Assembly (NCBI RefSeq): GCF_000384035.1
Contig: NZ_KB913024.1
Coordinates: forward strand, 2,776,405-2,840,404
Length of the DNA: 64,000 nucleotides
Origin: Actinopolyspora mortivallis DSM 44261
GTDB lineage: Bacteria; Actinomycetota; Actinomycetes; Mycobacteriales; Pseudonocardiaceae
Direction of reading: 5' to 3'
The position numbers were made by a program, and so were the translations under genes. Shown in pieces: positions 48,890 to 53,900 of this stretch. Every line of letters starts with the position of its first letter. The first letter of the stretch is position 1. Below the pieces are notes generated by a model. It had not been told where the DNA came from and made no database searches. It worked only from the letters and a program-made list of their open reading frames with translations.

Positions 48890-48943
48890 CAATCCTCCGA
48901 TCGTGTGTCCACGGATGTTCTTGTGCGGGATACCCTGTGGCTC

Positions 48944-49798
48944 ATGCCCGGAGACATAGAGCGACACTCGCCGCAGGCTCGTTTGCTGGGCGCCGAACTG
49001 CGTGAACTGCGCAAAGAGTCCGGAATTACCGTTCGGGAGCTGGCCAAACGTGTCGGGCTGGGGCACGCTGCCGTCTCTCGGTATGAGACAGGAGTGCGCT
49101 CGCCTGCCCGTGACCTCTTGGCCCGGATACTGGCGGAGCTCGGCGCGTCCGGGGAACGCTACGACGAGCTGATGGAGCTACAGCGACGGGCTTCCGAACC
49201 GAACCTGATCGCGGACAGTCGTTCCGGACTGCACAAGCACCTGCTCAACCTGGCAGAGTTCGAGCGTACGGCGAACCGGATCGTGCACGTGGCGCCACTG
49301 GTCATCCCCGGGCCGCTACAGACACGTGCTTACGCTGAAGAGATCATGTCGAGCTTGTCCGGCGAGGAGCGCGGTGTCCGCGTTGAGCTACGGATGGCGC
49401 GTAGCAGCGCGGTCCTCGGATCCGGGAAACTGGAAGCGATCGTCTGTGAACGCGTGCTTTACGACGATATCGGTGGCCCCGAAGTACTGGCCGAACAGCT
49501 CCGGCACATGGTAACCACCGTGAAGAACGGCAACGCGACGATCCGGATACTGCCACAGCGGACGCAGCGATGGACCCTGGCACACAACGGTTCGTTCGTC
49601 CTGTTCGAGTTTCCCAAAGCTTCCCCGATCATCCACCTAGAACACTACCGAGGACCGGCGTTTATCTATGATCAAAAGGATGTTGAGGCATACCGGGAAG
49701 CGCTGGTCGGTCTCACCGAAGCGACCATGAGCCTGGACGAGTCAACCAAGCTCATGGCCGCAATTGCTGAACAGATGGAAGGGAGTACTTCACCATGA
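48944..49798 (+). CDS. XRE family regulator with DUF5753 domain
   Basis: A 284-residue regulator. Residues about 14-65 are an HTH_XRE domain (LRELRKESGITVRELAKRVG, then AAVSRYETGVRSPARD); the rest is the DUF5753 ligand/partner domain typical of actinomycetes (VIPGPLQTRAYAEEIM, QRTQRWTLAHNGSFVLFEF). I chose ATG 48944; GTG 48905 is in frame and possible. The stop overlaps the DUF397 ATG, the classic pairing in which the small protein modulates the regulator, as in WhiJ/AbaA-type loci. Probable autoregulation through the palindrome at 48845. Confidence 0.93.
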   Translation: MPGDIERHSPQARLLGAELRELRKESGITVRELAKRVGLGHAAVSRYETGVRSPARDLLARILAELGASGERYDELMELQRRASEPNLIADSRSGLHKHLLNLAEFERTANRIVHVAPLVIPGPLQTRAYAEEIMSSLSGEERGVRVELRMARSSAVLGSGKLEAIVCERVLYDDIGGPEVLAEQLRHMVTTVKNGNATIRILPQRTQRWTLAHNGSFVLFEFPKASPIIHLEHYRGPAFIYDQKDVEAYREALVGLTEATMSLDESTKLMAAIAEQMEGSTSP

Positions 49799-49983
49799 GA
49801 CTACCAAGGGGATGGAGGAAATCACGTTACTCCAACCCAAACGATTCCTGCGTCGAGGTGGGCCGCCTCGGCGACGGCGCCGCCGTGCGCGACACCAAGG
49901 ACCGCTCGGCCGGGTACTTCACCACCACCCATCAGCAGTGGACCACCTTCCTCGACGCGGTCAAGAACAACCGCTTCGAGTGA
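49795..49983 (+). CDS. DUF397 protein
   Basis: A 62-residue partner of the XRE/DUF5753 regulator, coupled by ATGA overlap. Seen: WRKSRYSNPNDSCVEVGRL, VRDTKDRSAGYF and the closing WTTFLDAVKNNRF, all family blocks. Family knowledge: such pairs control development or secondary metabolism and have been compared with toxin-antitoxin units; the role here is not known. A terminator-like hairpin follows. Confidence 0.92.
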   Translation: MRLPRGWRKSRYSNPNDSCVEVGRLGDGAAVRDTKDRSAGYFTTTHQQWTTFLDAVKNNRFE

Positions 49984-50066: not shown

Positions 50067-50157
50067 GCCCGATTCTGCCTAAGGGGTTCTTGCAGGAGGG
50101 TTGTGTGTGGGCATGGTGGGGGTGGGGTGGTTTTCTTCCTGGTGAGAGGCGTCGATG

Positions 50158-50258
50158 GTGCCTCGGAAGCCGTGGGAGATCAGTGATGAGGTGTGGGCGG
50201 TGATCGCGCCGTTGTTGCCGCAGCACCCGCGGCGGCCGTGGGATGGGGGCTATCCACA
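50158..50258 (+). pseudogene. IS5-type transposase N-terminal fragment
   Basis: GTG 50158 begins about 33 codons of clear IS5-type transposase start (RKPWEISDEVWAVIAPLLPQ); similarity stops abruptly after WDGG. The rest of the gene is absent. About 200 bases of unassigned sequence follow; on the minus strand they read LLQHVWHHRVLTAELVTATI, possibly another fragment. Confidence 0.7.
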
Positions 50259-50487
50259 GTGTAGCCCGCCACGGCGAACAGCTGCCGTCACACTACAGCG
50301 GGCGGGGCTTGGTTGGATAATCAGTCATGGCCCAGATCCCGCCGATGGTAGCGGTCACCAGCTCGGCGGTGAGCACCCGATGGTGCCAGACGTGCTGGAG
50401 CAGGGCGGGCCCGCGCGTGCGGCCGGCGGCTAGGCGTGGTTCTCCGGTTGTTACGCCGGGCCGCAAGGTAGTGATCGCTCGATCGTA

Positions 50488-50754
50488 GTGTGGAACTGCT
50501 CCTTCGGCCCAGGCACCCGCGAAGGCCTCGCCGCCGCGAAAGCCAACGGCGTCCGACTCGGCCGACCATCGGCCATGACACCCGAACAGATCCACCACGC
50601 CCGCGCCCTGCTCGCCGAACCCGACACCACCGTGGCCTCCATCGCCCGCCTCCTCGGCGTGTCCCGCTCCACCATCTACAAATACGTCCCCGAACTCAGC
50701 ACCAACCAGACTTTCGAACCCGGATCCGTCCCACACTCAACACGTCCGAGCTAA
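50488..50754 (+). pseudogene. Serine recombinase C-terminal fragment
   Basis: The frame keeps only the last part of a resolvase/invertase: REGLAAAKANGVRLGRPSAM, then SIARLLGVSRSTIYKYVPEL, the Hin-type HTH. The catalytic N-terminal domain is missing. The N-terminal residues before GTREG are not from the family. It is a relic of a transposon or integrative element. Confidence 0.75.
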
Positions 50755-51072
50755 AACCAGCTCCGCATTCCTGCGACCGGACCATCCACGGCTACAGCAC
50801 AGCCCCACCCTCGAGCTCTACTCCTCCACCCAGGGCAGCTTCAGAAGTACAGGGCTTCCCCCATTTAGGCGAATGCAAGGAGGTTCTCCTGAGGGAACAC
50901 AATGTGCTCTGGCCCACCCGGACCATTTCCTCGGCGTAACTCCACCGACCACATCCCCGCACTATGATGTAATTCATACACTGATATAGGATCAAGGGCT
51001 GTTCACAGCCGATCAAGATCATGTAAGTTTTTGTTTGTCCAACTCACAACAATCTATCTTGGGTATCGCATA
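50755..51072. other. AT-richer intergenic region before the exported peptide gene
   Basis: About 320 bases, notably poorer in GC than the core genes, ending in a TATGATGTAATTCATACACT stretch and a T-run near 51028-51036. No gene is supported. It should hold the promoter of the next gene. The composition suggests recent arrival. Confidence 0.4.
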
Positions 51073-51651
51073 GTGAAACGCTCGACAGTACGTGCTACGA
51101 CGCTGGCAATTTCAGCGGCTTTGACAGTTAGTTTGTCCGGAGGTATAGCACAGGCCGCGACCGACCGAACCGCTACGCAAGAACACACCTGCGTTGAGGA
51201 TACGCAGAGAAAAGAGGTGGCGTCCGAAGCGGACAATGGCGAAAAGCCGGAGGACACTCGATACGTCGAAGAGCTCAATTCGGACAAGATCGAGAGATTT
51301 AATGAGCAATTGGTCAACGCCGGTAATGAACCGCTTCCGGAAGACGCCACGAAGCTGGAATTCCGTACGGATGGCTCTGTAATCGTCCATCTTTCCGATG
51401 GGACAACGCAGACACGACACGGTCCCGATGGGACAGCTGAAGGCTCAGGCGTCCATCCTATGGGGGTGAAGCACGAGATCAAGAAGGTCGTCGCTGGTTG
51501 CCTCGGCGTTTCTGTCGCTGCGCTCAGTTCTTGGGGCGCTTTGGTCGAACAATTCGCCACATGGCAGAAGGCTACGAAGTTCTTGGTTCGTCGGTTCGGC
51601 GTTATTGGTGCAGTGAGTTGCGCTGGCGGTATCATCTGGAAATATATCTGA
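51073..51651 (+). CDS. Exported protein with hydrophobic two-cysteine C-terminal domain
   Basis: A 192-residue product from GTG 51073 (a start at 51031 would spoil the signal). Residues 1-29 are a clear Sec signal (VKRSTVRATTLAISAAL; cleavage near AQA). Then come about 110 polar, acidic residues, and a hydrophobic C-terminal 55 residues with two Cys (VVAGCLGV and AVSCAGGI). The last 26 residues match the 114-350 peptide at 9 positions. A propeptide-like region plus a hydrophobic disulphide hairpin suggests an exported membrane-active peptide, superficially like SdpC, though SdpC hallmarks are absent. The gene is less GC-rich than its surroundings. Its 3' end is the first copy of a 100-bp duplication. 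Confidence 0.6.
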   Translation: MKRSTVRATTLAISAALTVSLSGGIAQAATDRTATQEHTCVEDTQRKEVASEADNGEKPEDTRYVEELNSDKIERFNEQLVNAGNEPLPEDATKLEFRTDGSVIVHLSDGTTQTRHGPDGTAEGSGVHPMGVKHEIKKVVAGCLGVSVAALSSWGALVEQFATWQKATKFLVRRFGVIGAVSCAGGIIWKYI

Positions 51652-51770
51652 TACACAACACCGGAGAGTAGCTACGAAGTTCTTGGTTCGTCGGTTCGGC
51701 GTTATTGGTGCAGTGAGTTGCGCTGATGGTACCATCTGGAAATATGTCTGATACACAACACCGGAACGTG
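51571..51770 (+). repeat. 100-bp tandem duplication across a gene junction
   Basis: Copy 1 (51571-51670) and copy 2 (51671-51770) differ at about 7 positions. Each holds the peptide's C-terminal codons, its stop and the first codons of the membrane gene. In copy 2 the junction reads ATATGTCTGA, where ATG starts the membrane gene and overlaps a stop; in copy 1 that ATG is ATA. Both units begin GCTACGAAGTTC, and the base after copy 2 starts GCTAGGAAGTTC, a plausible short-homology seed. Confidence 0.9.
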
Positions 51771-52157
51771 GCTAGGAAGTTCGAGGACTTCTTCGGCGGG
51801 CCACGCCTGGCCACCACGGGGACCGCTGTCGTTTTGGCTCTGGCCGCGGTGATCGCGCTGGGCTGGGCCGGGGTGTCGGCGTTCGTGTGCGCCGCTGTAT
51901 TCACCGGCGTGCAGGCGATCCTCGTGACAGGGTGGGTCGCGATCCGCTCGGGCGGGAGTAATGCGCTGCGTGTTGGCCTGGCGGGCCTGGGTGGACTGAT
52001 CGTCCTGTTCGCGTTCGGCGCCACCGGCGTATTCACCTTCGCTGAACAGAATGTCTGGTCCGGGCTCAGCGGAGTTCTCGGTATAGTGACCACGACCTTG
52101 CTCCTGGGAGTATCCCTGTCCCGTCAGAACCACGGTATCCAGTCCCAACAGCGCTAG
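51744..52157 (+). CDS. Four-helix membrane protein, partner of the exported peptide
   Basis: A 137-residue product starting MSDTQHRNVARKFEDFFGG, with about four hydrophobic helices (residues about 25-45, 47-68, 78-101, 108-126) and a polar tail. No catalytic motif. The ATG is in the second copy of the tandem duplication, where a stop in the peptide frame overlaps it, so the ancestral genes were probably translationally coupled. In the present form the intact peptide gene ends 92 bases earlier. Role inferred as immunity or export by position only. Confidence 0.6.
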   Translation: MSDTQHRNVARKFEDFFGGPRLATTGTAVVLALAAVIALGWAGVSAFVCAAVFTGVQAILVTGWVAIRSGGSNALRVGLAGLGGLIVLFAFGATGVFTFAEQNVWSGLSGVLGIVTTTLLLGVSLSRQNHGIQSQQR

Positions 52158-52402: not shown

Positions 52403-53163
52403 GTGTGGGCGGTGATCGAGTTGTTGTTGCCGCGGCGTCCGCGGCGGTTTCGGCACCTCGGGCGCACGCGGTTGGATGACCGCAAGGCTCTGTGGGGGAT
52501 CTTGTTCGTGCTCTACACCGGGATCCGGTGGGAGTATCTGTCCCAGGAGTGGGGGTGTGGGTTCGGGTCGACGTGGTGGCCTCGGTGGGCCGAGTGGCAG
52601 CAGGCCGGGGTGTGGGACGAGGTGCAGCAGGTGCTGCTGGCCCGGCTGCGGGCGGCGGATCGGTTGGATGTCTCCCGGGCGGTGGTGGACTCGTCCTCCG
52701 TTCCGGCCAAGCGGGGACGTGCTAGCCCACAAGTGGGGCCGAGCCCGGTTGACCGAGGCCGACCGGGCTCGAAACACCATGTGCTCACCGAGGCGGTCGG
52801 CACACCGGGGGCAGTGCGCTCCCCCGGGCCGGTCGGCACGATCTGACACAGCTGCCCGGGATGGTGCAGACCCTGTCGGCTGTGGTGGCCACACCGGACG
52901 AACTGCTCGGTGACACGGCCTACGACTCCCACACCTGCCGTGACGCCCTGACCAGTCAGGGCATCACACCCCGGCTCGGGAACCGCACACGTGTCCACGG
53001 GTCCGGACTCGGCAGGCTGCGCCGGGTCGTCGAAGCCGCCCTCGCCTGACTCCACGGAGCCCGCACACTCCACATCCAGTGGGAGACCCGCGACGACATG
53101 CACAAGGCCCTGCTCCCACTCGACCACTGCATGATCCTCGCCCGCAAACACCCCGCAGTCTGA
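52403..53163 (+). pseudogene. IS5-type transposase, broken
   Basis: Nearly full-length IS5-type sequence in pieces. 52403-52845 reads VWAVIELLLPRRPRRFRHLG through TGIRWEYLSQEW, SRAVVDSSSVPAKRG and SPVDRGRPGSKHHVLTEA. Then about 25 residues are lost or shifted, and 52861-53163 continues in another frame (GDTAYDSHTCRDALTSQGIT) with an in-frame TGA at 53047-53049. The start is also missing. It cannot encode an active enzyme. It ends 25 bases before the CRISPR array. Confidence 0.85.
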
Positions 53164-53188
53164 AAGGCCCCTAAAACCGGGCCACCAC

Positions 53189-53826
53189 GGCCCATCCCCG
53201 CGCCTGCGGGGAGCACCGGGCTGTGCGGTGCCGGGGCCACCGGTGGGATGGTCCATCCCCGCGCCTGCGGGGAACACGAGGCTGGAGTTGGTAGAGATAG
53301 AAAGAGACTAGGTCCATCCCCGCGCCTGCGGGGAGCACACAGCCAGAGCGTGGCGAGCAAGCGCTCGGGGTGGTCCATCCCCGCGCCTGCGGGGAACACC
53401 GCTACCACACATTTTGAGACCAGGAATCGCCAGGTCCATCCCCGCGCCTGCGGGGAGCACCCGAGGCTCTGGACTACCCCAGCGGTGGGGCCCGGTCCAT
53501 CCCCGCGCCTGCGGGGAACACTGAAAACGGCCCGCTCGGACCTGGGCGAGGCACGGTCCATCCCCGCGCCTGCGGGGAACACCCGGTGCGGAGCAAGATA
53601 TACGAAAAGGTCACCGGTCCATCCCCGCGCCTGCGGGGAGCACCCGTGCGTGGGCTTCGACTCGGTCCCAGTGGGAGGTCCATCCCCGCGCCTGCGGGGA
53701 GCACTGGTTGACGAGGGTGCTGGCGAGTACGAGATCGGGTCCATCCCCGCGCCTGCGGGGAGCACTCGAACTGCTTTATCAAACCCTGTACAAGCTTGGG
53801 TCCATCCCCGCGCCTGCGGGGAGCAC
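53189..53826 (-). CRISPR. Type I-E CRISPR array, 11 repeats and 10 spacers
   Basis: Eleven 28-base repeats at a strict 61-base period (33-base spacers), starting at 53189, 53250, 53311 and so on to 53799. On the plus strand the core is CCATCCCCGCGCCTGCGGGG; the reverse, GTGCTCCCCGCAGGCGCGGG, has the type I-E form, so transcription should be on the minus strand with the leader to the right. The copy at 53189 has a base change near its end, as expected of the oldest repeat. Four repeats (53250, 53372, 53494, 53555) end GGGGAACAC, the rest GGGGAGCAC. No cas gene is in the window. Confidence 0.98.
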
Positions 53827-53900
53827 ACGTACTGACCTGCGACTTCGTAGCAGCGTTATCCAGTTGTGATCTCTGGTGGGGAACGCACGCATCCTAGCCA
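53827..53900 (-). promoter_or_regulatory. Probable CRISPR leader and promoter
   Basis: On the minus strand TAGGAT (53896-53891) is a -10 candidate giving a leader of about 60 bases before the first repeat. The leader is less GC-rich than nearby genes (for example AGATCACAACTGGATAACGC). The rest of the gap, to 54044, holds no gene. Confidence 0.55.

Follow-up and report, generated by a model that had tools for sequence, protein, structure and literature searches.

We identified a two-gene cassette that very probably encodes a bacteriocin, exported through the Sec pathway and carrying its toxin at the C-terminus, together with a membrane immunity protein. It lies in a window of 64,000 nucleotides (the whole stretch of DNA that was analysed) from a genome of the genus Actinopolyspora that consists of one contig (4.23 Mb). 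The anatomy of the precursor, the conservation of its C-terminal domain, the constant adjacency of the two genes, the coupling of their frames, the pattern of selection and the decay confined to the toxin gene were all computed. Beyond the window, the cassette probably belongs to an unnamed family of the Actinomycetes, in which Sec-exported bacteriocins share a helical two-Cys C-terminal peptide (CLG ... A.KF..RR.G ... C.GG) and have exchangeable pro-parts and membrane immunity proteins of two kinds, and which has spread partly by plasmids or other mobile elements.

Layout of the cassette and anatomy of its products

The features of the cassette are listed in Table 1. The two ORFs, the Sec-type signal (recognised by eye), the acidic middle part (net charge -13 for residues 31-126), the two-Cys C-terminus and the four-helix protein from which the original prediction had started were all present. 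The G+C content was 54.7% in the precursor gene and 64.3% in the membrane gene, compared with 69.4% in the window. The precursor most likely starts at GTG, since the GTG-encoded Val is preceded by Ile in the window (51070-51075), at the place where the precursor frames of two other Actinopolyspora genomes (G003 and G009) have Met directly before it. A 200-aa antisense ORF also spans the precursor gene, and the dN/dS figures given here refer to the forward frame. The observed ORF is more than a chance one, because a relative was found in another genus (E 9e-18) and dN/dS over the whole precursor in the forward frame was 0.18 between the window genome (G000) and G003.

Table 1. Features of the cassette and its immediate surroundings, in window positions
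Feature	Position	Strand	Basis
Putative bacteriocin precursor gene (P0001), GTG start, 192 aa	51073..51651	+	ORF; relatives found
Sec-type signal peptide, residues 1-28, AQA-A site after residue 28	51073..51156	+	by eye; hydrophobic segment 11-25
Acidic pro-part, residues 29-130, small predicted beta-alpha-beta domain	51157..51462	+	charge; AlphaFold block
Proposed C-terminal toxin domain, residues 131-192, Cys143 and Cys183, predicted helical	51463..51648	+	alignment, Sd/Nd, AlphaFold
95-bp direct repeat, first copy, precursor 3' end	51571..51665	+	repeat comparison
95-bp direct repeat, second copy, holding the membrane-gene ATG	51671..51765	+	repeat comparison
Four-helix membrane protein, proposed immunity protein (P0002), ATG start, 137 aa	51744..52157	+	open, 88-91% identical in 6 further species
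Block common to the window and G003, 88.5% identity	50975..52170	+	pairwise comparison

Most of the 92 nt separating the genes consists of a second, incomplete copy of the precursor 3' end, identical at 91 of 95 bases. The precursor stop survives in the first copy, which lost the membrane-gene ATG; the ATG is retained in the second. This repeat had not been remarked on when the sequence was first read. G003 has the same +92 layout with a more diverged repeat copy.

Read by eye, the window shows IS-like and recombinase-like pieces next to the cassette, as well as a CRISPR array. The flanking segments at 50155-50754 and 52403-53049 presumably represent pieces of an IS5-type transposase and of a serine recombinase C-terminus, and we take 48905-49983 to hold an XRE-type regulator and a small DUF397-like gene; stretches of ~100 bp similar to this small gene recur near the locus in five of six other Actinopolyspora loci. 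The CRISPR-like array (53180-53860, with repeats of the form GGTCCATCCCCGCGCCTGCGGGGA recognised by eye) lies ~1 kb past the membrane gene, and its region was also called as a 195-aa repetitive ORF. Beyond the block that it has in common with G003, the window matches the six other fetched Actinopolyspora loci only in ~100-bp stretches near 49.9 kb, and longer flanking stretches are common among those six loci themselves.

The precursor has a basic start ahead of the hydrophobic segment of its signal. Its last 66 residues carry a net charge of +6 and contain Cys143 and Cys183; the pro-part has one more Cys (Cys40). AlphaFold gave a poor model of the precursor without its signal (pLDDT 55.8), with a block at residues 60-109 only (pLDDT 68-76), and a PDB search with this model returned 764 matches at E ≤ 10, none of them at E ≤ 0.001. 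When the C-terminal 67 residues were modelled alone (four sequences), helices were predicted at 4-19, 23-27, 31-34, 39-59 and 62-66 (pLDDT 74.6, pTM 0.60). With this model of fair confidence, the best Foldseek match among solved structures had an E of 7.0, and the best of 14 chains (VIA) was an acyl carrier protein (Z 2.8). A confident match of the domain to an envelope protein, named beforehand as evidence against the prediction, did not turn up with this model, and the missing close PDB neighbour is proof neither of novelty nor of difference. The membrane protein has four hydrophobic segments (residues 29-47, 49-67, 79-97 and 107-125).

Searches of Pfam, NCBIfam, PHROGs, PADLOC and PDB sequences returned no convincing family match (best E 0.69 for PDB sequences). 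Candidates set aside for the window precursor were NCBIfam FexB (E 0.006, with 15 bits where the cut-off is 950) and Pfam aRib (E 0.03, below cut-off). In a plasmid-borne relative, described below, the pro-part gave sub-cut-off matches to two models, one for class IIb bacteriocins (E 0.68) and one for RiPPs (E 0.084), and the membrane protein of a Saccharopolyspora relative (G247) matched NF042935 SCO6880 (E 6.9e-5, 22 bits against 60), which was likewise set aside. A literature search over titles and the starts of abstracts, with incomplete coverage of subscription journals and preprints, found no description of this pair.

Distribution, adjacency and one-sided decay

The precursor family was sparse across the genomes surveyed. 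Its named relatives within the genus are Actinopolyspora xinjiangensis and A. righensis, a further relative (G247) was assigned to Saccharopolyspora sp. HNM0983, and two more (G621 and G322) belong to one genus, of which 2 of 49 genomes were positive. Precursor relatives occurred in 7 of 401 genomes of one family (4 of 37 in one of its genera). Surveys that included the window's own genome gave 3 of 394 genomes for the class, 5 of 396 for the phylum (three of the five, at E 0.002-0.003, too weak to be counted as relatives) and 12 of 297 in a further set (five of the 12, at E 0.002-0.006, again weak and not counted). Also left uncounted were a membrane-gene row in G001 (E 0.0015, 25% identity in a 384-aa frame), 12 of 19 genomes outside the seven with at least 88% identity (E 0.0007-0.01) and one further row (E 0.2). 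These counts bear on an ordinary envelope pair, that is, a structural or folding factor that is exported and works with a partner in the membrane, to which the small folded domain that the pro-part may hold would be suited. We regard such a pair as highly improbable, given this sparseness, the repeated breakage of the precursor gene, the low G+C in the window, the partial location on mobile elements and the lack of a PDB match.

One copy of the cassette is carried by a mobilizable skin plasmid of Corynebacterium tuberculostearicum (9,719 bp), which was the only match among plasmid records, none of which held the G322 domain. Another lies at the end of an IMG/VR contig (UViG), the one contig matched in the IMG/VR scans (two other scans gave none); phage records gave no match. 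The surroundings of the IMG/VR copy (L062 2448-4265 and 6535-7626) hold ORFs that resemble a cytosine DNA methyltransferase and a tyrosine integrase (names assigned by eye), as well as what we take to be a putative restriction enzyme, and are likely the end of a mobile island. The small plasmid and the integrase-like ORF would suit an addiction or abortive-infection pair, in which a membrane toxin acts inside its own producer, is countered by a membrane antitoxin and is kept by plasmids or prophages, and an antitoxin could also outlive its toxin. However, this alternative is unlikely. Of the 10 intact precursors, 8 have one hydrophobic segment of the signal-peptide type at the N-terminus (that of G247 has none in the called frame and that of G322 has two), and this segment and the long pro-part would be needless for an intracellular toxin. 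Moreover, the PADLOC-DB defence models gave no family for four proteins at E ≤ 0.1, and 17 of the 19 loci considered next came from whole-genome assemblies rather than plasmid or viral records.

These 19 loci, which hold the domain or its remnants, were collected from Actinopolyspora, Saccharopolyspora, other actinobacterial genomes, the C. tuberculostearicum plasmid and the IMG/VR contig. They count as about 10 lineages, since the seven Actinopolyspora loci, three loci of the G1241 type and the G1180/G1230 pair each represent one. A small membrane-protein gene adjoins the domain or its remnant in all 19, against a rough background in the window of 2 of 59 other crude genes that encode at most 150 aa with at least two hydrophobic segments, and reading the ORF lists of seven loci by eye revealed no further gene in common. 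The precursor is intact in 10 loci (the window locus G000, G003, G247, G621, G322, the plasmid, UViG, G1241, G1204 and G1307), where every neighbour is a membrane protein of 66-137 aa, with four hydrophobic segments in seven cases and two in three. At the remaining nine (G009, G006, G008, G004, G005, G1367, G1134, G1180 and G1230), the precursor is broken by a stop, frameshift, insertion or truncation and the neighbour is open. None of the 19 loci combined an intact precursor with a neighbour that was broken or absent.

Outside Actinopolyspora, the damage takes several forms. In G1367 (L079, G1367:C2:528000-541000), an insertion of ~2.6 kb, with an ORF that is presumably IstB-like, splits the toxin gene (C2 533177-536017) and the downstream membrane gene is intact; only the last 22 residues of the precursor remain in G1134, and the precursors of G1180 and G1230 are frame-broken. 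The neighbours at the broken loci are ~90% identical to P0002 in the five Actinopolyspora genomes, and have four hydrophobic segments in G1367, three in G1134 (crude count) and two each in G1180 (96 aa) and G1230 (145-aa ORF with an uncertain start). Because 18 of the 19 loci came from precursor queries, with G005 found only through its membrane gene, the search did not favour one-sided decay. The membrane gene persists without the toxin and never the reverse (9 versus 0 of 19), as in a bacteriocin/immunity pair. Together with the constant adjacency, this one-sided decay supports the toxin/immunity layout, resembling sdpC/sdpI, that had been suggested from the window, the activity itself being proposed.

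The same adjacency of a small exported peptide and a membrane protein could also be expected of a signalling peptide (pheromone) whose receptor or transducer is encoded by the neighbouring gene. This alternative is quite unlikely, as the membrane protein stays open at all nine loci with a broken peptide gene, no regulator or other shared neighbour was seen by eye, and the neighbours, unlike a conserved receptor, diverge strongly and fall into two kinds. Furthermore, a two-Cys domain of 60 residues is large for a pheromone.

The proposed bacteriocin/immunity loci vary in spacing and gene order. Stop-to-start gaps of -8 nt (G006, G008 and G009), -4 (G621 and G322), -1 (G1307) and +3 (UViG) were found alongside wider ones of +33 (G1241, G1204 and G1367), +92 (G000 and G003) and +122 (G247). 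On the plasmid, the order is reversed with a 1-nt overlap (TAGTG), and the membrane gene comes first there and in G1180 and G1230. At least two kinds of neighbour can be told apart, with four helices (120-137 aa) or two (66-96 aa), and in many of the four-helix proteins a [WFY]-x-G-G motif precedes helix 1. Over 114 aa, P0002 shares 37% with the G1307 protein (E 8e-8, database of 11 proteins); no convincing match was found between P0002 and the G247 membrane protein in pairwise comparison, nor a convincing link between two-helix and four-helix neighbours. UViG and G1241 share 72% of the toxin domain, yet their neighbours differ in kind, and thus the pairing is not strictly one-to-one.

Conservation, selection and proposed mechanism

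The C-terminal domain is the best-conserved part of the precursor across genera. Precursors range from 136 to 338 aa, and the two Cys of the domain lie 36-44 residues apart (40 in the window protein). The elements CLG, A.KF, RR.G and C.GG are invariant in the six-row alignment of the domain (A6). In G322 (L049 652-1668), the same toxin domain follows a different and longer N-terminal part after a TADPKW junction (338 aa in total), which suggests that the pro-parts of these precursors may be exchangeable.

Within the genus, 10 genomes were compared, of which six had a precursor match and seven a membrane gene of at least 88% identity, without a stop in all seven species; G001, G002 and G007 had neither gene at the thresholds used. 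Intact precursors within the genus were limited to G000 and G003. The precursor has an internal TAA in G009, is frame-broken and lacks the signal region in G006, and is reduced to residues 130-190 in G008, to a match over the last 34 residues in G004 and to ~13 codons in G005. Five of the seven membrane-gene carriers therefore have a broken or remnant precursor. A membrane protein occurring without the peptide had been named beforehand as evidence against the pairing. It was formally seen in these five carriers, and all five have a remnant of the peptide gene directly upstream, so that toxin decay fits better than an unrelated gene. Since most carriers keep only the proposed immunity gene, these Actinopolyspora can be read as resistant former producers.

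We then examined selection on both genes. Between G000 and G003, residues 131-190 gave Sd 12 and Nd 1 (dN/dS 0.02, Nei-Gojobori) and residues 1-130 gave Sd 28.5 and Nd 25.5 (dN/dS 0.25), a contrast between the C-terminal domain and the rest with a Fisher p of 0.010 on rounded counts. Between G003 and the stop-bearing G009, the whole precursor gene gave Sd 4, Nd 14 and dN/dS 1.16. The focus of selection on the domain, its conservation across genera and the different N-terminal part in G322 support the pre-pro-peptide with an active C-terminus that had been predicted. For the membrane gene, pooled pN/pS was 0.34 over 21 non-independent pairs. Among 10 non-independent pairs of species without an intact toxin, a shortage of nonsynonymous changes was significant in six (binomial test against the neutral share of sites, p < 0.05; p = 5e-6, 0.0003, 0.0014, 0.0017, 0.0055 and 0.036), and the other four showed no significant constraint (p = 0.10, 0.15, 0.29 and 0.53).

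For the mechanism, we infer killing, the cleavage site, the disulfide, the membrane target and immunity. The precursor would be exported by Sec and its signal peptide removed, and an envelope or secreted protease, for which no dedicated candidate was noticed, would cut near residue 130, freeing a mostly helical C-terminal peptide of ~60 residues (cationic in the window) that is probably closed by a Cys143-Cys183 disulfide. In close relatives of the producer, this peptide may damage or depolarise the cell membrane. The four-helix protein from the adjoining gene, residing in the producer membrane, would block the peptide, and this putative immunity protein would persist after the toxin gene decays. 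Across 10 precursors the charge of the C-terminus ranges from +11 down to 0, so that some of them may not act by a simple cationic mechanism.

Significance and comparison with known systems

The cassette, which has no family name, turns up in hosts as far apart as halophilic Actinopolyspora and, on a plasmid, a Corynebacterium of human skin, and hints at a possible agent with a narrow spectrum against actinobacteria. To our knowledge, few unmodified ribosomal bacteriocins have been described from actinomycetes. Within one genus, some members naturally have both genes, some only the membrane gene and some neither, and thus killing, immunity and loss can be tested directly with a short synthetic peptide.

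Among known systems, the unmodified or leaderless helical bacteriocins of lactic acid bacteria combine a helical peptide and a small membrane protein, encoded by two genes and carried on plasmids. The cassette is alike in its two-gene layout, predicted helical peptide, small membrane protein and plasmid carriage, whereas its precursors of 136-338 aa differ from a peptide with a short leader, and no NCBIfam bacteriocin model scored above cut-off for the cassette proteins. In Staphylococcus aureus, the available text on the type VII secretion system describes TspA as a membrane-depolarising toxin that is neutralised by its partner TsaI (PMC9484751). The proposed membrane-acting toxin and its neutralising partner would resemble this pair as described there, but TspA is a type VII secretion substrate and the cassette precursor has a Sec-type signal.

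In the available text on SDP, SdpC is processed to a shorter active form that collapses the proton motive force (PMC6963621). Like SDP/SdpI of Bacillus subtilis, the cassette would combine an exported precursor, a processed active part and a membrane immunity protein, here predicted from sequence. The original prediction had suggested that the system may be separate from sdp, and this was supported: the SdpC model TIGR04032 had no match at E ≤ 1 in the genome and none on P0001 at E ≤ 10, while in control searches it rang in 4 of 14 genomes, including Bacillus subtilis, once over its cut-off. For P0002, a Pfam search at E ≤ 10 gave no SdpI model, the only match being DUF6343 (E 2.8). In the SdpABC operon, the processing proteins SdpA and SdpB are encoded next to the toxin; what was recognised by eye around the cassette in the window were the IS-like and recombinase-like pieces and the CRISPR array noted above. 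Because the SdpC model failed and SdpI was not matched, the cassette is not filed under SDP/SdpI. Mature SDP also has two Cys, only a few residues apart as opposed to 36-44 in the present domain. Overall, the best reading by analogy is that the cassette may work like SDP/SdpI yet stand outside that family.
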